DNA of 64,000 nt from Luteitalea sp. TBR-22 (GTDB lineage: Bacteria; Acidobacteriota; Vicinamibacteria; Vicinamibacterales; Vicinamibacteraceae), in the NCBI RefSeq assembly GCF_016865485.1, contig NZ_AP024452.1:5478501-5542500 (forward strand), given 5' to 3'. The position numbers and the translations under genes are program-made. The notes beneath the pieces were generated by a model. It saw only the letters and a list, made by a program, of their open reading frames with translations, was not told the DNA's origin and did no database searches. Position 1 is the stretch's first letter. Every line of letters starts with the position of its first letter. Below, piece after piece: positions 2,057-25,327 of the stretch.

Positions 2057-2707
2057 TCAGCGCTCGGCAATCACCAGCCCCTTGCGACCCGAGCCTCGCA
2101 TGGTGAAGGCCTCGTCGACGGAGAGCATCCGAAACCCGGCACGCTCCAACTCCTCCGCAATCAGGCGCGGGGCGATGCCGTGCCACTTCACCTGTTCATC
2201 CCGCGTGGGTAGCCGCGAGGCGTTGTCGCAGATCACCAGGCGACCGCCGCGGCGCAGCGCACGTCGGAAGGCGTCGAGCATCGCCGCGTGCTCCGTGAAC
2301 TCGTGGTAGGCGTCGACGACGATGATGGCGTCGAGCCTGCCTGCTGGCAGGCCCGGATCCGTGGCCGACCCTCGAAGCACCTCGACGTTGGCCAGGCCCT
2401 CGTCCTGCATGTGCTGCTGCAGCCGCTCCGCGATCCGCGCGTCAATCTCCACGGCATACACGCGTCCCGTCGGGCCGACCGCCGCCGACAGCTTCCGTGT
2501 GATGAAGCCGCCGCCGGCACCCACGTCCGCGACATGCGCGCCTTCGCGCATCCGCATCGCTGCGAGCAGGTCTGGCACCCGCTGCCACGTGTCTCGCCCA
2601 GCATCGGAATCCTGACCACGAGCCAGCAGTGAGTTCGGCCATGCGCTGGCGAGCGCGAACACCGCGCGCAGCATCGCCCGGCGAGAATGGCGGTTCGTCC
2701 AGTACAT
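2057..2707 (-). CDS. Class I SAM-dependent methyltransferase with Tat-like signal
   Basis: This 216-residue protein has a Rossmann methyltransferase fold. The SAM-binding motif I is VADVGAGGGF near residue 60, followed by an acidic motif II (AVEID) and VVDAYHEF in the motif IV region. The N-terminus reads SRRAMLR followed by a hydrophobic stretch and an Ala-rich end, which fits a twin-arginine export signal, with the catalytic domain starting near residue 40. Export of a SAM-dependent enzyme would be odd because SAM is cytoplasmic; the segment could instead be a membrane anchor. Its start lies 9 nt after the stop of the VWFA-domain gene, so the two are probably co-transcribed. The methyl acceptor is unknown. 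Confidence 0.8.
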   Translation of the reverse strand: MYWTNRHSRRAMLRAVFALASAWPNSLLARGQDSDAGRDTWQRVPDLLAAMRMREGAHVADVGAGGGFITRKLSAAVGPTGRVYAVEIDARIAERLQQHMQDEGLANVEVLRGSATDPGLPAGRLDAIIVVDAYHEFTEHAAMLDAFRRALRRGGRLVICDNASRLPTRDEQVKWHGIAPRLIAEELERAGFRMLSVDEAFTMRGSGRKGLVIAER

Positions 2708-2716
2708 GACGGTGAC

Positions 2717-4789
2717 TCAGCGATTGTCCTCGGGCAGCGTGGGCGCAACGATGCCGACGGGGACGTGGTGGGTACCGCTGCTCGTCGTCACCACCAGCGA
2801 TCCCGTGCCCTCTGCGCCGTCCAGGGCGAGCGTGAACCGTACCGTGCTCGTCCCCTCGATGGGCACTCCGGTGCCCTCCCACGCAATCGTGCCGTCAGAC
2901 AGGACGAGTCGGGCCTGAGCCGGCCCCTTCGCGCCGTCATGCGCAGCGGTCACGGCGAGCACGTCCCCTTTCGGGAACGCGCGCGCCGTCGTCGGGGCGA
3001 TATCGGTCCAGCGAGACAGGCGCGGATCGATGAACGGCGTGGGCATCATGGCGAGGAAGCGGGAGGCCACGAGCACGCCTGTTGGCCACTGCGGCTCCTT
3101 CGGCACCGTCACATCGAGGTAGACGGCCCCACCACGACCGGTACCTGCGTGTACCGCGCCGACCCGCAACTGATGGCGTCCCGGGGGCAGGTCGAGCGCC
3201 CAGATGGTGCGCAGGCTCGAGGCCGCCAGGACCGACCACTGCGTCGGGGTGGGCTTGAGCGTCAGCACGCGCCGTGTGCCATTGGCCGCCTTGCCCGATT
3301 CGTTCACGGTCAGGAGTCCCTGTTCCAGGTCCAGCACGCCATCGGGCGGGCGCTGGCCGATGCGCGTGCCGTCGATCTCCACGATCACCGCGATGGTCGC
3401 GTCGCGTCCGGTCCGCGCGACCGGCACGGCCTCCACGCTCATCGGCAGGCCGTCCTCGGGCAACACGCCGGCCAGGAGACGGCGTAGAGGCGCCGAGAGG
3501 CTGCCAGGCACCTTGAGCGGCGGCGTGGGTCGTGCACCTGCGGCCCTGTACCCTCGACGCGCGAGCACGCGAAGGCCGGGGCGCTTCACCTTGACGTCGA
3601 TCCTTCTGAACTCGTTCGACCTGAGGGGACGCTCGGGCTCGTACGCGAGCACGTAGTGCATGCTGGCGTCCTGCACGGCTCGATCGACGGCCTTCAGCGG
3701 GTCGTTGGTGTCGACGAGCGACACGCCACCCGTGAGCACCGCCAGGTCTCGCGTCATCTCTCGCGACTGGCGAGCCTCCATGAGGATGTCGCTGTACTGC
3801 TGAGGGGAAAGACCTCCCTGCAACCCTGGGACCGAGATGAGTTCGGCATCGGGCACGTCCAGGCCATTGGGATTGATCGGATAAATGGCGACGTTGCCGA
3901 CGGCGGTCGCGGCCAGCACGTCGTTCATGAGTCGCAAGGAACCGCTGCCGGCATTCACACGCTCGGTGCCCCTGGCGCTCGGGATCCGGACCTCCATGTC
4001 CGACATGCCGGCACCGTAGGACGAGCCTTCGCTGAGCAGGACGACGGTCTTGCGGCGCCCCGAGATGTCGCGCAAGGCCAGGGACACGTCGCGGAGCCGC
4101 TCACAGAGGCGCTGATAGTGGTCCAGGCGCTCGTTCTCGGAGTCGTCGCCCCTGAACCGCTTCGACTGGAGGGTCTTGTCGAGCAGACGCCGGCCAGTGA
4201 ACGTGTCGATCATCCGCGTGGCGTGGGAGCGGTCCCGGGTGAAGTACCCGGTCGAGTCCGTCGAACTGGTGGTCGCCACCAGCAGCAGGTCGCTGGGATC
4301 GAGTTGCGCCAGGAGTCGCCTGGCAGCAGACCGCGCCACCTCCGTTCGGCGCACGTCCACGTGGAGGTCGTCCAGGATCAGGACGAAGACGCGCGACTCT
4401 GCCGCGAAGTGATTGGTCGCCGGAGGTGTCACCGGAACGACGGACGCCGCTCCTGTGGTTATGGGCACGACCGGTGCGGGCACGGCCGTGCGGCCAGGGG
4501 TGAAGACGAACGACGTGAAGGACCGGACCTTCTGCCGCACGCCTTCCTCGAGCACCTCGAAGTCCTCGGCGGCCAGGCCGGGCACGGGCTGCCCCTGGTC
4601 GTCGACGACGAGCACGCTCACCTCGACGCGTGTCACCGTAACGCTGAACGTGGGCTCGTCAGGGAACTGCCGCTCCTGGGGCACATCCGGGATCGCGAGC
4701 CGCGGGATGCCTCGCGGCGCCTGGGCCGCCGCCGAGGCCGGCAAGACGGCACACAAAGCCAGTGAGCAGATCACGAAGGCGACACGCAT
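2717..4789 (-). CDS. VWFA-related Acidobacterial domain protein
   Basis: The 690-residue product starts at the Met of MRVAF, which begins a clean signal peptide ending near ASAAAQA; a Met five codons upstream is less likely. Residues about 50-100 hold the region typical of this family (VTRVEVSVLVVDDQGQPVPG, then an EDFEV segment). A von Willebrand A-like domain follows, with FVLILDDLHVD as the MIDAS-like strand near residue 135 and a nucleotide-binding-like strand KTVVLLSEGSSYG. The C-terminal half looks like beta-sandwich domains. The family is almost diagnostic for Acidobacteriota and is secreted or envelope-bound; its role is unknown, with protein-protein contacts inferred from the VWA fold. 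It is first in a likely two-gene operon with the methyltransferase. Confidence 0.85.
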   Translation of the reverse strand: MRVAFVICSLALCAVLPASAAAQAPRGIPRLAIPDVPQERQFPDEPTFSVTVTRVEVSVLVVDDQGQPVPGLAAEDFEVLEEGVRQKVRSFTSFVFTPGRTAVPAPVVPITTGAASVVPVTPPATNHFAAESRVFVLILDDLHVDVRRTEVARSAARRLLAQLDPSDLLLVATTSSTDSTGYFTRDRSHATRMIDTFTGRRLLDKTLQSKRFRGDDSENERLDHYQRLCERLRDVSLALRDISGRRKTVVLLSEGSSYGAGMSDMEVRIPSARGTERVNAGSGSLRLMNDVLAATAVGNVAIYPINPNGLDVPDAELISVPGLQGGLSPQQYSDILMEARQSREMTRDLAVLTGGVSLVDTNDPLKAVDRAVQDASMHYVLAYEPERPLRSNEFRRIDVKVKRPGLRVLARRGYRAAGARPTPPLKVPGSLSAPLRRLLAGVLPEDGLPMSVEAVPVARTGRDATIAVIVEIDGTRIGQRPPDGVLDLEQGLLTVNESGKAANGTRRVLTLKPTPTQWSVLAASSLRTIWALDLPPGRHQLRVGAVHAGTGRGGAVYLDVTVPKEPQWPTGVLVASRFLAMMPTPFIDPRLSRWTDIAPTTARAFPKGDVLAVTAAHDGAKGPAQARLVLSDGTIAWEGTGVPIEGTSTVRFTLALDGAEGTGSLVVTTSSGTHHVPVGIVAPTLPEDNR

Positions 4790-4922
4790 CTCACACTCCG
4801 GCACTCAAGAAGCGGCGGGGAGGCACCTCCAGCAGGGCACTGGCACACACGGGACTGGCGGTAGCACTTGGACGACGACGGCATGCTGGTGGCCTGCGGA
4901 CCACTCAACTGGCTGTCTCTCG

Positions 4923-5801
4923 TCACCTGTCCGGCGCTGCCACCTGCGCGTCGGGCAGCACCTCGGCGAACACCTTCACGTCGGCCACCCACTTGCCGAG
5001 CGGCACGGGTGTCGCGAGCGTGAACGGCAACGATGCGTCGTTCTCGAGCAACCCGGTTGGCAACGCCGCGCCCTCGACGTCCGGCGTGCCGGTGAGCACC
5101 TCGAGCACCTGCTGGTCCTTGTCGAGCAGCAGCGCGGTGATCGTGAGGCCTTCCGGGCGGAGTGGACCGCCGGCCCTGAGGCGCAACGTGCCCGAGACCC
5201 GAAACGACTGCCAGGAGGCCCTGGCCTTCCCCATCGACACGTCGAACGCGTAGGGACGCGAGGGACACGCTTCTCGTGCGGGCGCCTTCCCCGCCTCCAC
5301 CCAGCGCAGCCCGGTCGTGACGGCTCGTCCGGCCTCGGCCACCTGCACGACGTAGCCGGCCGGTACGCGCGGCAGGTCGGCCTTCTTCTTCAAGCGGAAG
5401 CGATACGGCAGCAGACCCTCGGGCTCGACCAGCGTGACGCGAGCCTCGTTCTCGATGGCATCACCGATGGGCGCGCCCTGCTCGTCGGTGTACTGCAGGC
5501 GCACCGACGCGTCGCGAAGACAGGTGCCGGTGTTGCGGAACGCGCCGACCAGCATCCCGAGCGCCGCGTTCTCGTAGCTCACCGACGCGTTCTGCAGCGG
5601 CGCGAGGTCCACGCCGTCGCTGGTCGCCAGGCGCCCCTCGGCAGGAATGGCCAGCCACTCGGGCGGCGACGTCGTCAGGCGCACGTCGCGTTCCACCATG
5701 CGCCCACGCACGCCGCCCTGCCCCTGCGCAGGCGCGGCCCACGCCGCCAGCACGAGCATTGCCACGCCACCGACTCCGAGAACCTTCGAGCGTGTGTCCA
5801 T
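4923..5801 (-). CDS. Secreted protein of unknown function, FxLYD-like
   Basis: The start is placed at the Met of MDTRSKVLG, which directly precedes a signal peptide; an upstream in-frame Met would add 16 polar residues. The mature part, about 265 residues, seems to hold two beta-sandwich units. The first (about 60-150) speaks of change with context, with motifs such as GAFRNTGTCLRDASVRLQYTD, resembling FxLYD domains. The second ends in a strand KWVADVKVFAEVL. No catalytic motif is visible. The gap upstream (5802-5992) is almost filled by repeat arrays, so its promoter must lie within or next to them. Function not recognised. Confidence 0.6.
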   Translation of the reverse strand: MDTRSKVLGVGGVAMLVLAAWAAPAQGQGGVRGRMVERDVRLTTSPPEWLAIPAEGRLATSDGVDLAPLQNASVSYENAALGMLVGAFRNTGTCLRDASVRLQYTDEQGAPIGDAIENEARVTLVEPEGLLPYRFRLKKKADLPRVPAGYVVQVAEAGRAVTTGLRWVEAGKAPAREACPSRPYAFDVSMGKARASWQSFRVSGTLRLRAGGPLRPEGLTITALLLDKDQQVLEVLTGTPDVEGAALPTGLLENDASLPFTLATPVPLGKWVADVKVFAEVLPDAQVAAPDR

Positions 5802-5855
5802 CGCGCTCCCCTGCTCGACGCCATTCTGCCACCGAGCCCGACTCGCCACGCGGCC

Positions 5856-5904
5856 CTCTTCGTTCTTCCCTCTTCGTCCTTCCTCCTTGGTCCTTCGCCC
5901 TTCC
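5856..5904. repeat. Heptamer array, YYCTTCS type (7 units)
   Basis: Seven consecutive 7-mers share the core CTTC: CTCTTCG, TTCTTCC, CTCTTCG, TCCTTCC, TCCTTGG, TCCTTCG, CCCTTCC. The array stands between two divergent genes and is followed 2 nt later by a second array with a different word. Confidence 0.85.
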
Positions 5905-5906
5905 CG

Positions 5907-5941
5907 TGAGCCCTGAGCCGTGAGCCGTGAGCCGTGAGCCC
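5907..5941. repeat. Heptamer array, TGAGCCS (5 units)
   Basis: Five perfect-length 7-mers, TGAGCCC, TGAGCCG three times, then TGAGCCC, follow each other without interruption. The same word family recurs at 9534-9659 and 19191-19218. Confidence 0.9.
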
Positions 5942-5944
5942 TTC

Positions 5945-5979
5945 GTCATTCCCGGCATCGCAGCATTCCCGGCATTTCT
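5945..5979. repeat. Nonamer-type repeat, ATTCCCGGC family
   Basis: Degenerate 9-mers (GTCATTCCC, GGCATCGCA, GCATTCCC, GGCATTTCT) lie 14 nt upstream of the flavin oxidoreductase start. A cleaner copy of this family abuts the start codon at 53833, and an inverted copy lies at 54351-54375. Confidence 0.7.
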
Positions 5980-5992
5980 GTACCCTGTCCTC

Positions 5993-7021
5993 ATGGAACT
6001 CGGCATCACCACCTTCGGCGATCGCTTCCCGGATCCGGCGACGGGGCACCTGGTGAGCGAGACCCAGCGCATGCAGGACTTGATCGAAGAGGCGGTGCTG
6101 GCCGATCAGGTCGGCCTCGACGCCTACCTCGTGGGTGAGCATCACCGGCCGGACTTCGTCGTGTCGGCGCCGGCCGTGGTGCTGGCGGCCATGGCGGCGC
6201 GCACGAAGCGCCTCCGGCTCGGCAGCGCCGTGACGGTGCTGAGTTCCGAGGACCCCGTACGCGTGTACCAGCAGTACGCCACAGTCGACCTGATCTCCAA
6301 CGGCCGGGCCGAGATCATCGCGGGGCGCGGGTCCTTCATCGAGTCGTACCCGCTGTTCGGGCAGGACCTGCACGACTACGACGCGTTGTTTGCCGAGAAG
6401 CTGGGCCTGCTGCTGCGGGTGCGCGAGCAGGAGCACGTGACCTGGCAGGGTCGCTTCCGCGCGCCGATCGACGGCCGCGGCGTGTACCCGCGCTCCGTGC
6501 AGTCACCGCTGCCGGTGTGGGTGGGCGTCGGCGGCACACCCGCGTCGGCCGACCGCGCCGGGCGACTGGGACTGCCGATGGCGCTGGCGATCATCGGCGG
6601 CATGCCGGCGCGGTTCCGGCCCTTCGTCGACCTGCACCAGGACGCGGCACGCCGCGCCGGCCACGGCCACGTCCCGGTCGCGGTGCACTCGCACGGCTAC
6701 GTGGCTGCGGAGTCGCGGCAGGCGGCCGACGAGTTCTTCCCGTCGTACGAGGTCGCGATGACCGGCATCGGCAAGGAACGCGGCTGGCCCCCCATGACGC
6801 GGCAGGCCTTCGAGGCGATGCGCGAGCCGCACGGCGCGCTGTTTGTCGGCAGCCCGACCCAGGTCGCCGACAAGATTCTCCGCCAGCACGAGATCCTCGG
6901 CTTCGACCGGTTCCTGCTGCACGTGAGCGTCGGGACGATGCCACACGCGCAGGTGATGAAGGCCATCGAGCTGTTCGGCACCGAGGTGGCGCCGCAGGTG
7001 AGGAAGGCGCTGGCGGCGTAG
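5993..7021 (+). CDS. LLM-class flavin-dependent oxidoreductase
   Basis: The 342-residue protein starts at the Met of [12 protein letters not shown], the normal start for this family; upstream in-frame Mets are encoded by repeat DNA. The fold is the bacterial-luciferase TIM barrel, recognised from GEHHRPDF near residue 48, the [11 protein letters not shown] strand, the [15 protein letters not shown] strand, and the C-terminal [11 protein letters not shown] segment followed by a FLLHVSVG strand. Members use FMN (or F420) to oxidise diverse substrates. This one resembles the group annotated only as LLM-class oxidoreductase, so the substrate is open. It is a single gene, divergent from the secreted protein upstream and convergent with the glycosyltransferase downstream. 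Confidence 0.85.
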
Positions 7022-7024
7022 AAC

Positions 7025-7110
7025 AGGCTCAGGGCTCAGGGCTCAGGGCTCAGAAAGCATGCGCATGGCTCATCGGGGCTCAGGGCTCGACGCTCAGAGA
7101 GCACGCTGAC
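7025..7110. repeat. Heptamer array, GGGCTCA type
   Basis: Four near-perfect GGGCTCA units (7025-7052) are followed by AGAAAGCATGC and then by a second, degenerate run (7065-7098) ending in AGAGAGCACGCTGA. The same tail follows the arrays at 9483-9503 and, more loosely, 43374-43408, so the array and its tail seem to travel together. It sits between convergent genes. Confidence 0.85.
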
Positions 7111-7139
7111 GGGTGACGGCCTGGGAGCGACACCCGGGT

Positions 7140-7163
7140 GTAGGCGTCGCCATTGGGCGACGC
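7140..7163 (+). repeat. REP-like palindrome b (GTAG head)
   Basis: GTAG precedes a perfect 8-bp stem, GCGTCGCC and GGCGACGC, with an ATTG loop. It lies between the GGGCTCA array and a CAAGGCC array. Confidence 0.65.
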
Positions 7164-7167
7164 GCAC

Positions 7168-7195
7168 CAAGGCCCAAGGCCCAGCCTCCAAGGCC
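7168..7195. repeat. Heptamer array, CAAGGCC (4 units)
   Basis: The units are CAAGGCC, CAAGGCC, CAGCCTC and CAAGGCC. The array ends 3 nt before the complement of the glycosyltransferase stop codon. Confidence 0.75.
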
Positions 7196-7198
7196 CTG

Positions 7199-9409
7199 TC
7201 AGCGCACCTCGCCGCGCAGTTCCCGTAGCGCGCCGGCGGCTTGCGCATACGACGGGTCGATGCGCAGCGCCTCCTGCAGCAGCGCGATGGCCTCGTCGCG
7301 TCGTCCCTGCTGCGCGCGGAGCACGGCGAGGTTGAAGCGGGCGGTGGCGCGCGCTGGGTCCAGCCGCGCGGCCTCCTCGAACAACGACGCGGCGCCGGCG
7401 GCATCGCCCGTCCTGGCGCGCATGAGCCCCAGCTTCTCGACGACCTCCGCATCTCCTGGCGCGTGGCGGCGATACACCGAGAGCAGCCACTCCGCGAGCG
7501 TGACGTGCCGAGCCTCCACGGCCGCGAGGGCGCGCGCACGGAGCAGGGGCAGGCCCTCGGGCGTGACACCGGCCGCCAGTACGTTGCGGGCGAGAGCCTC
7601 GTCGCCGTTCTGCCAGTGCGCCAGCGCGATGTCGAGACGATAACGCTCGCTGCGTGCCGTTGGCGCCCCGCCATCGCCTGTCGCCTGCAACTGCTCCAGG
7701 AGCGGCAAGGCGTCGCGGCCCTTGCCTTGCGACAACAACACGCCGGCCAGGGCGAACGTGACGTCGGACACCTCGGGATCGAGACGGTGGGCTTCGCGCA
7801 GGGCCTTCTCCGCTCGCGGGATGTCGCTTCTCGCCTGCCAGGCCAGGCCGGCCCGGAACCACGCGATGCCCGGCGCGGGATGCCGCGCCACGGCACTGGC
7901 GAGCCACTGCTCACCCTCGGCATCACGACCGGCGTCGATCGCGATCACTGCCATCTGCGTGTCGGCGTCGGCCTCGCCGCGCTGGAACGGCAGCGGCACG
8001 AGTCCCGCGACGAACACCACCGCGCCGACCACCAGCGCGACGAACCCGCTTCGACCTGCACGCTCGCGGTGCTCGCGCGTCGTCGAGGCCAGCAGGCCCA
8101 CATGGATGGCGCCGAGCACGAGCGCTGGCATGCGATAGCGATCGACCACGAAGAAGATCGCGACACTCAGCAGGTACACGGGCAGCAACCAGCGGAACCA
8201 GCGCCATGCCGCGCGCCGCTCGTCGTCGACCAGCACGCCCCCGCCGATCGACACCGCAAGGCCGAGTGGCACGAGCAGCCACGCGCCGAACGGCATCGCC
8301 CACAGCAGCGGCGTGTGCTCGCGGAACCATGCGTGGCTGAGGTTGACGGGTAGTTCCCACGAGTGCGTGGTCAGCCACACCTTCCACGCAAGCAAGCGAG
8401 TAGCCTGCAGCGGCGAATCGCGCCACCAGTCCAGGGCCAGCCCGATGAAGTACCAGGACACCTCACCGTCTGGCGGCCTTCCCAGCGCCTTCGTCACGAC
8501 GTTGTACATGTCGAGCCGCTGGCCCTCGATCGAGGGACGGATGCCATCGATCACGCTGTACGTGCCGTTGGCACCGGCGTGGTTGCCGATGTAGAAGTTC
8601 AGCCCGCCGTGCGTCGGCAGCGGCGACCACTCGAAGCCAGCCAGACGCGACCGCAGCGCGAAGGGCGCCAGCACCACGAGCACGCCGAGCAGGAGGCTCA
8701 TCGCCGCCCAGGCAGGGCGCGGTGTCCCCACCGCGCCGCTGTCGTGGCGAGAAGAACGAAGCATGGCTGCGGCGAGCACCACGACGCCGAGCAGCCAGGC
8801 GTTCGGCCGATTGGTCGCCAGCAGCGCCAGCCCCACGCCGCTCCACGCCCACCGACGAGTGGACGGCTCCTGCAATGCCCGCGTCGTCGTCCAGGCGAAC
8901 AGTGCCATCAGCAGTGGGTCGAGCGCCGACTGCAGGATCACCGCCTCCTGCAGGGCCACGATGCTCGTGAGCGCGAGCACGCCGCCAGCCACGAGGCCCG
9001 CGCGCCACGCCCGTGCAGGCGCGGCCCACCGCATCGTCGTTGCGGCGACCAGCCACACGGCGCCCGTACCGAGCACGGCCTGCAACGCGAGCACGCCGGC
9101 GACCGACGCGCCGGTGAGCACCTGCGCGAGCGCCAGCCAGTAGATGTAGAGCGGTGACACGTCGAGCGCCTGTTGCTGCATCAGGATGTCGCCCGACGCG
9201 ACACGCTCCGCGAACCGCCAGTACGCGCCGGTGTCGAGGTCGCCGACCGGCTGCAGCAACGGGTGATCGGCCAGCGTGAACGCGAGCGCGAGCTTGAGGC
9301 CCAGCGTCAGCAGCAGCGCCGCGATGGCGAGGGCCGGACGAGTGGGTAGGCCCGGGTCTCCGACCCGGCCGTCCGCGGCCGCACGCCGCGATCGCGAAGC
9401 TCGTGACAC
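7199..9409 (-). CDS. Polytopic GT-C-type glycosyltransferase with C-terminal TPRs
   Basis: The 736-residue product begins with a GTG codon. About ten membrane segments occupy residues 28-440. The first long loop holds GDLDTGAYWRFAERVASGD, an acidic motif typical of GT-C enzymes of the family-39 type that use polyprenyl-linked sugars, followed by SPLYIYWLA. The last 250 residues are tetratricopeptide repeats, recognisable from repeated A-x-x-P-G-x-A-x-A-x-x-x-L patterns and EALRIDPSYAQAAGALREL. Similar fusions are common in this phylum and probably glycosylate exported proteins or cell-surface polymers. The first codons contain a REP-like palindrome (9346-9370) that encodes residues 14-21, so the true start may be uncertain, though no better start exists before the first membrane segment. 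Confidence 0.75.
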   Translation of the reverse strand: MSRASRSRRAAADGRVGDPGLPTRPALAIAALLLTLGLKLALAFTLADHPLLQPVGDLDTGAYWRFAERVASGDILMQQQALDVSPLYIYWLALAQVLTGASVAGVLALQAVLGTGAVWLVAATTMRWAAPARAWRAGLVAGGVLALTSIVALQEAVILQSALDPLLMALFAWTTTRALQEPSTRRWAWSGVGLALLATNRPNAWLLGVVVLAAAMLRSSRHDSGAVGTPRPAWAAMSLLLGVLVVLAPFALRSRLAGFEWSPLPTHGGLNFYIGNHAGANGTYSVIDGIRPSIEGQRLDMYNVVTKALGRPPDGEVSWYFIGLALDWWRDSPLQATRLLAWKVWLTTHSWELPVNLSHAWFREHTPLLWAMPFGAWLLVPLGLAVSIGGGVLVDDERRAAWRWFRWLLPVYLLSVAIFFVVDRYRMPALVLGAIHVGLLASTTREHRERAGRSGFVALVVGAVVFVAGLVPLPFQRGEADADTQMAVIAIDAGRDAEGEQWLASAVARHPAPGIAWFRAGLAWQARSDIPRAEKALREAHRLDPEVSDVTFALAGVLLSQGKGRDALPLLEQLQATGDGGAPTARSERYRLDIALAHWQNGDEALARNVLAAGVTPEGLPLLRARALAAVEARHVTLAEWLLSVYRRHAPGDAEVVEKLGLMRARTGDAAGAASLFEEAARLDPARATARFNLAVLRAQQGRRDEAIALLQEALRIDPSYAQAAGALRELRGEVR
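9346..9370 (+). repeat. REP-like palindrome c inside a coding region
   Basis: GTAG is followed by arms GGCCCGGGTC and GACCCGGCC around a TCC loop, one position short of perfect. It falls in the 5' end of the glycosyltransferase gene on the opposite strand. Confidence 0.55.
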
Positions 9410-22808: not shown

Positions 22809-23696
22809 TCACGGCGCCTTCACCAGCGCCTGCGCCTCGGGATCGGCCTCGGCCCACAGCGCCCGGGCTTGCGCGAGCGTCTCGTCGGCTTGCGCGGTGT
22901 AACCGAGGCGACGATAGGCGGCGGCCAGGCCGACCCTGGCCTGGACGCGGCGGGGCCACTCCACGAGCAGGTCGCGGTAACGGTCGCTGGCGGCGGCGTA
23001 GCGATCGGTGATCCGGAGCAGGTCGGCTTCCACCTCCCACGCCAGCAGCACCGGGGTGCGCGGGTCGTCGGGGGTGTAGAGCCGCTGCTCGAGGTCGTGC
23101 GCCGCGTCGAGCAGCATCTGCATCTCGTCGCGCTCGTACTGGGCGCCGGCCATCGCGCCCTGCACGACAAGTCGCGCCCGCTCGGCCTCGCTGACCGGAC
23201 CCGATTGCCTGGCCAGCGCCTCGAGCTGGCGGAGTTCGGCGCGCGCCCGCGCCTGCAGCGCGCCGTCCTGCCGCGCCCACGATGTCCGCGCCGCCGCAAC
23301 CCCACGCACCAATGGGCCGAGCCAGGCCAGGCCTTCCTCATCGGGCAGCCGGAGTTGGACGAGCGCCGGCCAGTCGGCCGCGTCGACACGCCGCAGCGCC
23401 TCGAGGCGCGCGACCTCCCCGAGCCAGGCGGCCCGCGCCGGACCCGCGAGGAGCGCAGCCGCCCTCCGCGACGCCGCGAGACGCGTGTCGGCAGCGCGCC
23501 AACGCCCCGCCTCGATGTCGAGCCGCGTGCAGCGGGCGAGCATCAGCGCCGACGCGTCGCGCGCCGACCCGGCGACGACCTCCAGCACGGCGCCGGGATC
23601 CGCGCAACCGGTGGCCACCGGCTGCAGGCTCGCGGCGCCGCCGACGACCCACGCCGAGGCCAGCCACGCAGCGATCGCCAGGTGTCCGCTCGTCAC
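22809..23696 (-). CDS. TPR-like secreted protein
   Basis: The 295-residue protein starts with GTG overlapping the stop of the RidA gene (GTGA), a typical coupled start; residues 1-25 are hydrophobic with a probable signal cleavage. The rest is alpha-helical with TPR-like helices, clearest in DRYAAASDRYRDLLVEWPRRVQARVGLAAAYRRLG and the following ADETLAQARALW. It probably mediates protein contacts in the periplasm. Translation is coupled to the triple RidA gene. No named family. Confidence 0.7.
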   Translation of the reverse strand: MTSGHLAIAAWLASAWVVGGAASLQPVATGCADPGAVLEVVAGSARDASALMLARCTRLDIEAGRWRAADTRLAASRRAAALLAGPARAAWLGEVARLEALRRVDAADWPALVQLRLPDEEGLAWLGPLVRGVAAARTSWARQDGALQARARAELRQLEALARQSGPVSEAERARLVVQGAMAGAQYERDEMQMLLDAAHDLEQRLYTPDDPRTPVLLAWEVEADLLRITDRYAAASDRYRDLLVEWPRRVQARVGLAAAYRRLGYTAQADETLAQARALWAEADPEAQALVKAP

Positions 23697-24763
23697 GGCC
23701 TCACGGCGGTCGCCTGGATCTCCACGGACGCGTCCGGCACCACCAGGCCGCACACCAGCGTCGCGCCTGCCGGAAGCGGCCTCCCCATCACCTCGCGCAT
23801 CACCCGGCGCGCCGGGGCGGCGTCGCACGCCTCGGTCACGTACAGGGTCATGTCGACGACATGCGACCAGTCCAGGCCACTCAGCGCCAACACGTTGCCG
23901 AGTCGCGCCATGGTGCTGCGCGTCTGTGCCTCGAGGCTCGCGCGCGGATCCTCACCCAGTGCGCCCGAGAGGCACACGCGCGGCGGCGCCTCGATGGCCG
24001 GCACCAGCAGCGCGTCGGCGGCCACCGGCGTCGCCACGCCGGTCACCGACCGGCCGGCCTGTGCCACCAGCGTCATCTCGACGCGGTAAGCGGGATTCAT
24101 CAGCCCGGTCACCACCGTGGCGCGCGCCGGACGCGGCACCGGCATCCGCGCCCGATAGCGCGCGTTCATCGCCGCGAAGTCGGAGACGTCGGTGATGAAC
24201 AGCCGCGCCAGCACGACGTCGGCCAGGCTCAGTCCCGCCGCGCCGAGCAGTTCGGTGGCGTTGTCGGCAATCACGTCGAACTGCGCCTCGACGGTCCCCT
24301 CGACGGGCACGCCGGTGCGGACGTCGCGGGGCACCAGGCCCGACAGGAACAGGGTGTCGCCGCATCTGATGGCGTGACTGTAGGGGTTGGGCGACGCAGG
24401 CCAGCCGGCCGGGTGGACCACCTCGCGGGCCGTGCCCGGCGCCGCCGCCACCGCCGTGACCTCGACCAGGGCGTCCGCGACCTCGGGTGGCGCGACCACT
24501 GTCGTCCGGGCCGGCGGCGCGTCGCCGAACCGGTCGGCACAGGCGCGGTTCATCGCGGCGAAATCGGCGGCATCGCGCAGTTGCACGTGCAGCGATGCCG
24601 TCCGGGCGAGCGCGCTGCCGGCGCCGCGCAGCACCTCGTCGAGCCTGTCGAGCGCGTCGGCGACCTGTCGTCCGGCGTCGGCGCCCGGCCCGCGATCACG
24701 AGCGATCACTCCCGAGACGTGCACGAGGCCGGCGGCGGAGACGACCGAGGCGAAGGGTTCCAT
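23693..24763 (-). CDS. Triple-domain RidA/YjgF family protein
   Basis: The 356-residue protein holds three RidA-like domains in tandem, about 1-108, 115-236 and 245-356, each ending in the family's VE-x-x-A strand (VEVTAVAA, VEMTLVAQ, VEIQATAV). RidA proteins are usually single domains of about 130 residues that form trimers and hydrolyse reactive enamines/imines. The catalytic arginine is present in domain 1 (Arg86 in ARTTVV) and domain 2 (Arg214 in ARATVV), but the third has Gly333 in GATLV. The chain could fold as an intramolecular trimer with unequal sites (inference). The downstream TPR gene overlaps by 4 nt; a cyclophilin gene is divergent. Confidence 0.85.
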   Translation of the reverse strand: MEPFASVVSAAGLVHVSGVIARDRGPGADAGRQVADALDRLDEVLRGAGSALARTASLHVQLRDAADFAAMNRACADRFGDAPPARTTVVAPPEVADALVEVTAVAAAPGTAREVVHPAGWPASPNPYSHAIRCGDTLFLSGLVPRDVRTGVPVEGTVEAQFDVIADNATELLGAAGLSLADVVLARLFITDVSDFAAMNARYRARMPVPRPARATVVTGLMNPAYRVEMTLVAQAGRSVTGVATPVAADALLVPAIEAPPRVCLSGALGEDPRASLEAQTRSTMARLGNVLALSGLDWSHVVDMTLYVTEACDAAPARRVMREVMGRPLPAGATLVCGLVVPDASVEIQATAVRP

Positions 24764-24802
24764 GCGGGCGATTATGCCCGGAGGGGATGGTAAGGTGTGG
24801 CC

Positions 24803-25327
<525 letters not shown>

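Follow-up and report, generated by a model that had tools for sequence, protein, structure and literature searches.

The window, a 64,000-nucleotide stretch of contig NZ_AP024452.1 of Luteitalea sp. TBR-22 (Acidobacteriota, Vicinamibacterales), encodes a 356-amino acid (aa) protein with three tandem RidA domains in a single chain (3x-RidA). Judging by its sequence, this is a genuine 3x-RidA, a protein of a known kind, in a variant form in which two sites are likely and the third appears to have failed. On balance, we consider it probable that the chain folds as a closed pseudo-trimer with two intact pockets and a dead third pocket, and that the protein is a cytoplasmic offshoot of an exported family; the most likely function to be predicted for it is that of an imine/enamine deaminase with two working sites. 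The gene and its domains are as follows.

23693..24763, minus strand: 3x-RidA gene, ATG start, 356 codons plus stop, three PF01042 domains
24440..24757, minus strand: domain 1, residues 3-108, with the codons of R86 (24506-24508) and E101 (24461-24463)
24053..24427, minus strand: domain 2, residues 113-237, the best conserved of the three, with the codons of R214 (24122-24124) and E229 (24077-24079)
23699..24016, minus strand: domain 3, residues 250-355, with the codon of G333 (23765-23767), which replaces the catalytic Arg, and that of the retained E348 (23720-23722)

The PF01042 model matches the protein in three stretches (E 2.4e-55, 186.2 bits against a cut-off of 27.3), as does TIGR00004, 'Rid family detoxifying hydrolase' (138.4 bits against a cut-off of 106.25), in agreement with an earlier note on this DNA that had reported three RidA domains in one chain, with Arg at positions 86 and 214 and Gly at 333; all three residues were re-read as named there. 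With Gly in its place, domain 3 alone lacks the catalytic Arg that characterizes domains of the RidA subfamily and that domains 1 and 2 have; each of the three domains has Thr two positions (88, 216, 335) and Glu 15 positions (E101, E229, E348) after the Arg position. The frame is not a chance one, given that another genome of the genus (G125) has a stop-free full-length copy with 53% identity and that more full-length relatives are found across the order. No start codon lies between the preceding in-frame stop and the ATG at 24763, and the adjacent cyclophilin gene is only 33 bases away, so that a signal peptide cannot be added upstream in frame.

The whole chain was modeled with AlphaFold2 (one alignment of 19 aligned sequences, a single chain alone), with a predicted local distance difference test (pLDDT) score of 91.5 and a predicted template modeling (pTM) score of 0.91. 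The top Foldseek match of this model is chorismatase 4bps (E 1.5e-12). When Foldseek's own list of matches was re-ranked with VIA-align 2, chorismatase chains came first (Z 25.7-26.0; 5a3k_C with Z 26.0 and a root-mean-square deviation of 3.1 over 280 residues, spanning model residues 11-354), followed by FBXO22 (Z about 16); single RidA-type chains aligned on the middle domain (Z about 12-13), and the cyanuric acid hydrolase chains 4nq3 and 6dhj were near the bottom among the matches listed (Z 11.5-11.6). The likeness to chorismatases (5a3k, 5ag3, 4bps) extends over nearly the whole model of a single chain at Z about 26, but identity is 16-17%, the chorismatase reaction is another one, and no chorismatase model is among the Pfam and NCBIfam matches of the window protein. 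To our knowledge, there is no 3x-RidA structure that could compete with chorismatase and FBXO22 as a match. The active site of cyanuric acid hydrolase differs from the RidA-type site. The two chains of this kind are related to AtzD, the 'Toblerone' fold protein of the cited passages (PMC3758960), and align only weakly, with 11-12% identity to the window protein. Given the confident whole-chain model and the near end-to-end match to a solved single chain, that of chorismatase, the predicted folding of the window chain as a closed pseudo-trimer is supported, which agrees with the built-in trimer suggested in the earlier note and is the opposite of three separate, non-trimer-like domains. It is improbable that several chains associate instead, for example as domain-swapped trimers of chains, such that the tandem is not one closed unit: the model does come from one alignment and from a chain modeled alone, but the pTM of 0.91 was reached with that single chain, and the structure aligned with it nearly end to end is likewise a single chain.

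In Arabidopsis RidA, the carboxylate of pyruvate is held by R165 and T167, and E180 of the neighboring subunit is 3.26 Å from the carbonyl, as described in the cited passages of PMC4960622. The window protein resembles the RidA homotrimers (Arabidopsis RidA, E. coli YjgF/TdcF) in the fold of each domain and in the Arg, R+2 Thr and R+15 Glu of domains 1 and 2, but consists of one chain rather than three, and its sites are no longer equivalent. The pairing of Arg and Glu positions was analyzed in 199 three-domain frames, from which seven with short domains were dropped, leaving 192 frames and 107 distinct proteins; the set excludes a single one-domain frame and five two-domain frames, gap or X cells were set aside, and degenerate or distant proteins, such as those of loci L089 and L197, were retained. 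Joint loss was concentrated in three pairings (one-sided Fisher test: R1-E2, p 0.00096; R2-E3, p 0.0017; R3-E1, p 1.6e-06), with p values from 0.096 to 1 for the six other Arg-Glu pairings. After clustering at 60% identity (40 state units in 31 clusters), the same pairings yielded 0.0093, 0.018 and 0.016, respectively, and the rest 0.31 to 1, all of these cluster values being too small because the clusters are still related to one another. Counted by offset, 11 joint losses involve the next domain, five the same domain and three the previous one, and none of 20,000 shuffles reached 11. Moreover, the position of E101 is occupied by Gln in 7 of the 12 full-length relatives that lack the third Arg, compared with 1 of the 82 that have it, and the protein of G125 has Gln in place of both E101 and E348. 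On the tree, the R1-E2, R2-E3 and R3-E1 pairings are represented by about 0.9, 0.9 and 2.2 concordant and 0.1, 0 and 0 discordant independent pairs, respectively; about 1.5 concordant pairs were also obtained for R3-E3. Taken together, the pattern of losses suggests that the Arg of domain i is paired with the Glu of domain i+1 in one pocket, such that pocket 1 of the window protein would be R86-E229, pocket 2 would be R214-E348, and the putative dead pocket would be G333-E101.

The three domains differ in how well the Arg is kept, as the earlier note had anticipated in suggesting that the sites of the built-in trimer may differ. Among 94 distinct full-length relatives (a set that includes a few sister proteins; 16 partial or multi-hit frames were left out), Arg is present in all three domains of 79, the third Arg is lost in 12 (seven Gly, three Pro, one Trp and one Ala), the first in three and the second in none. 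The 12 losses of the third Arg correspond to four inferred changes on the tree, where the window protein first joins that of G125 (support 100/98), then L156 (89/92) and then five more Gly proteins (90/90), the latter two joins not being starred. A sequencing slip or a lone oddity is ruled out as the source of the missing third Arg by the Gly in G125, of the same genus, and by the 12 of 94 relatives without this Arg, in four inferred changes. Identity to the consensus of the relatives with all three Arg is 45% for domain 1 of the window protein, 58% for domain 2 and 43% for domain 3, versus 63, 63 and 66%, respectively, for the relatives themselves; drift of domains 1 and 3, with domain 2 close to consensus, fits a dead pocket between domains 3 and 1 and two intact pockets built on domain 2. 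The loss of both the signal peptide and the third Arg, together with this drift, could also be taken to mean that the gene is in decay, without a selected function in the genus, which we consider very improbable, given that G125 has an intact full-length frame with 53% identity in the same gene order and that R86, R214 and E229 are kept in both proteins. Another reading, unlikely in our view although less so than decay, is that the pseudo-trimer has moved past imine chemistry and binds a metabolite or a partner protein, given that chorismatase and FBXO22, its best whole-chain structural matches, put a similar fold to other uses; the drift of domains 1 and 3 and the long branches of several relatives that lack the third Arg would be in line with such a binding scaffold. 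However, the window protein retains R86 and R214 along with the R+2 Thr and the Glu of each domain, and none of the 94 relatives has lost R214, a conservation that would be needless for a mere scaffold; the sequence models name the protein Rid.

Under the favored scenario of a deaminase with two working sites, each pocket would, by analogy to RidA, lie between two units, with the Arg of one unit holding the carboxylate of the substrate and the Glu of its neighbor placed beside the imine carbon, and the chain order would make the three pockets of a single chain distinguishable. The conserved middle domain would contribute to both pocket 1 and pocket 2, which would act in the cytoplasm and convert enamines or imines by hydrolysis into keto acids and ammonia, and pocket 3, without the residue that holds the carboxylate, would be dead or otherwise used. 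Several points weigh against this scenario. Independent losses on the tree are too few for any of the pairs to reach 0.05 in a sign test; two proteins (L010 and L028) lost E3 along with R3, a same-domain pair; and of the three named residues, only the Arg is missing from the third pocket of the window protein, with E101 and E348 kept. Furthermore, the 3x-RidA is not needed for housekeeping, given that the same genome also has a canonical single-domain RidA (TIGR00004, 167 bits); no pyridoxal phosphate (PLP) enzyme is present among the scanned neighbors of the gene; and no activity of a 3x-RidA in print was found among the matches listed in the literature searches made.

The central idea is not new, because covalently linked trimer units have already been proposed for 3x-RidA proteins, which were so named, with EF_0115 as the example, by Niehaus et al., 2015 (PMC4433059, as far as the cited passages go); this paper was the sole match in a literature search for '3x-RidA'. 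The window protein shares with these proteins the three tandem RidA domains in one chain and differs in lacking the Arg of domain 3; the passages cited are silent on the residues of individual domains, on signal peptides and on the genomic surroundings of 3x-RidA. Among the matches listed in literature searches on tandem Rid trimers, on RidA and Acidobacteria, and on DgaE and RidA, nothing was found on an exported 3x-RidA. The proposed pairing of residues in the pockets and the link between exported 3x-RidA proteins and PLP enzymes go beyond the papers cited here; the acidobacterial family with export signals is a further addition.

When 297 genomes of the phylum were searched with the window protein, full-length relatives were identified, the closest in G125 (53%), with the others mostly at 38-45% identity and a few lower, and a profile search (alignment A3) yielded a match at E 1e-40 or better, including some sister proteins, in 85 of 162 genomes of the order. 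Among 45 loci from named genomes, 21 (L039-L059) are from Acidobacteria or Vicinamibacterales metagenome-assembled genomes and belong to the window family (L055, L058 and L059 being shorter matches), and the other 24 are weaker matches that are one or two domains long. That the full-chain family is general in bacteria is unsupported: none of 349 genomes from the phylum to which a locus titled Xenophilus belongs yielded a match at E 1e-33, in a search that had no known-matching genome as control. By a home-made heuristic that detects a hydrophobic stretch before domain 1 and is not a trained predictor, 86 of the 94 distinct full-length relatives appear to be exported. Among the other eight, two (L014 and L041) have an N-terminal haem domain behind the hydrophobic stretch, L091 has such a stretch further upstream, and L052 is truncated at the end of its contig; no signal was detected in the window protein, G125, L156 and L137. 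As far as sequences tell, this is a conserved acidobacterial family, most members of which have an export signal and an Arg in each domain. Neither the signal nor the third Arg is present in the window protein and its two closest relatives, and the window protein is predicted to be a cytoplasmic offshoot of this mainly exported family. In two loci, L014 (829-2595) and L041 (1568-3199), a Haem_bd domain (PF14376, with a CxxCH motif) is fused N-terminally to a 3x-RidA of the window family.

The 3x-RidA gene is flanked by two genes that keep their places in G125.

22809..23696, minus strand: downstream gene, 295 aa, whose GTG start overlaps the 3x-RidA stop by 4 bases (GTGA); same place in G125
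24797..25327, plus strand: divergent gene for a cyclophilin-type peptidyl-prolyl isomerase, separated by 33 bases from the start of the 3x-RidA gene; order conserved in G125

In G125, the stop-start overlap is one base (TGATG). Of the earlier suggestion that the 3x-RidA gene is translation-coupled to the gene of an exported tetratricopeptide repeat (TPR) protein, the overlap stands; the TPR assignment is weaker, with faint TPR-like matches and no Pfam model above cut-off in the downstream protein (best DUF6584, E 0.0014; TPR_12, E 0.83). This protein is probably exported, judging by eye from its putative signal peptide. The further scanned neighbors are an Fpg/Nei-type glycosylase, an Ada-like methyltransferase, an ABA4-like protein, a histidine kinase and two proteins without a match.

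Elsewhere, family members and their sisters adjoin PLP enzymes. In L051 (2127-4264) and L052 (2-2049), a gene of the window family directly precedes a threonine ammonia-lyase gene (TIGR01127, 386.9 bits against 378.75), with the 3x-RidA stop overlapping its start; threonine ammonia-lyase is described as a known RidA partner in the cited passages of PMC4433059. The window genome encodes four triple-Rid proteins, namely, the window protein and those of L087, L088 and L089. The L087 gene (arrangement at 2650-7206) is located between genes for an amidohydrolase and a DgaE-family PLP enzyme with a twin-arginine-like N-terminus (RRTFFERLS), beyond which there is a single Rid gene whose product has a similar signal; here and below, signals of sister proteins and PLP enzymes were judged by eye, and the DgaE-model scores are below the curated cut-offs (196.6 versus 385.3), so that the enzymes are DgaE-like only. 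The L087 amidohydrolase is 82.8% identical to that of L091 (2264-7334), the one with a model match, where the same arrangement is found. Among nine further loci (L231-L239), the arrangement is present in L234, L235, L236 and L237, altered in order in L233, missing or beyond the range covered in L231, L232 and L238, and without a DgaE-like gene in L239; five of the six clusters L087, L091, L234, L235, L236 and L237 include the single Rid gene. The second sister type (L088, 4160-7200; L092, 4483-7609) adjoins another DgaE-like PLP enzyme, of about 550 aa, also with a twin-arginine-like N-terminus. The three-domain Rid protein encoded in L089 (4602 onwards; C1:2131889-2132917) is degenerate, with other residues at most of the Arg and Glu positions, and has a signal-like N-terminus.

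The location of the genes of sister 3x-RidA proteins, which look exported, beside those of PLP ammonia-lyases with twin-arginine-like signals hints at imine chemistry outside the cytoplasm. The cytoplasmic pathway of chitin oxidation in a Pseudoalteromonas strain combines a deacetylase with a PLP-type deaminase and with a RidA protein that has no assigned role (PMC9537276, passages cited). By analogy to this combination, amino-sugar acids are a candidate substrate class, and the cluster of an amidohydrolase/deacetylase, an exported 3x-RidA and a DgaE-like enzyme could possibly represent an extracytoplasmic amino-sugar-acid pathway. More broadly, we tentatively propose, at somewhat less than even odds, that vicinamibacterial Acidobacteriota perform extracytoplasmic imine/enamine chemistry, with exported single-chain Rid trimers, some of them fused to c-type haem domains, acting beside twin-arginine-exported PLP ammonia-lyases and exported amidohydrolases. 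Pockets would then be shed singly, as Arg(i)-Glu(i+1) units, because the sites of a single chain can evolve apart, and the window protein would be a branch back in the cytoplasm with two sites left. In a homotrimeric RidA, the three sites are identical in sequence, so that natural variation cannot show which subunit contributes a given residue to a site; in a single-chain trimer, each site is free to mutate alone, and the losses point to the Arg of one domain acting together with the Glu of the next. The wider family raises the question of why bacteria would export an imine deaminase.
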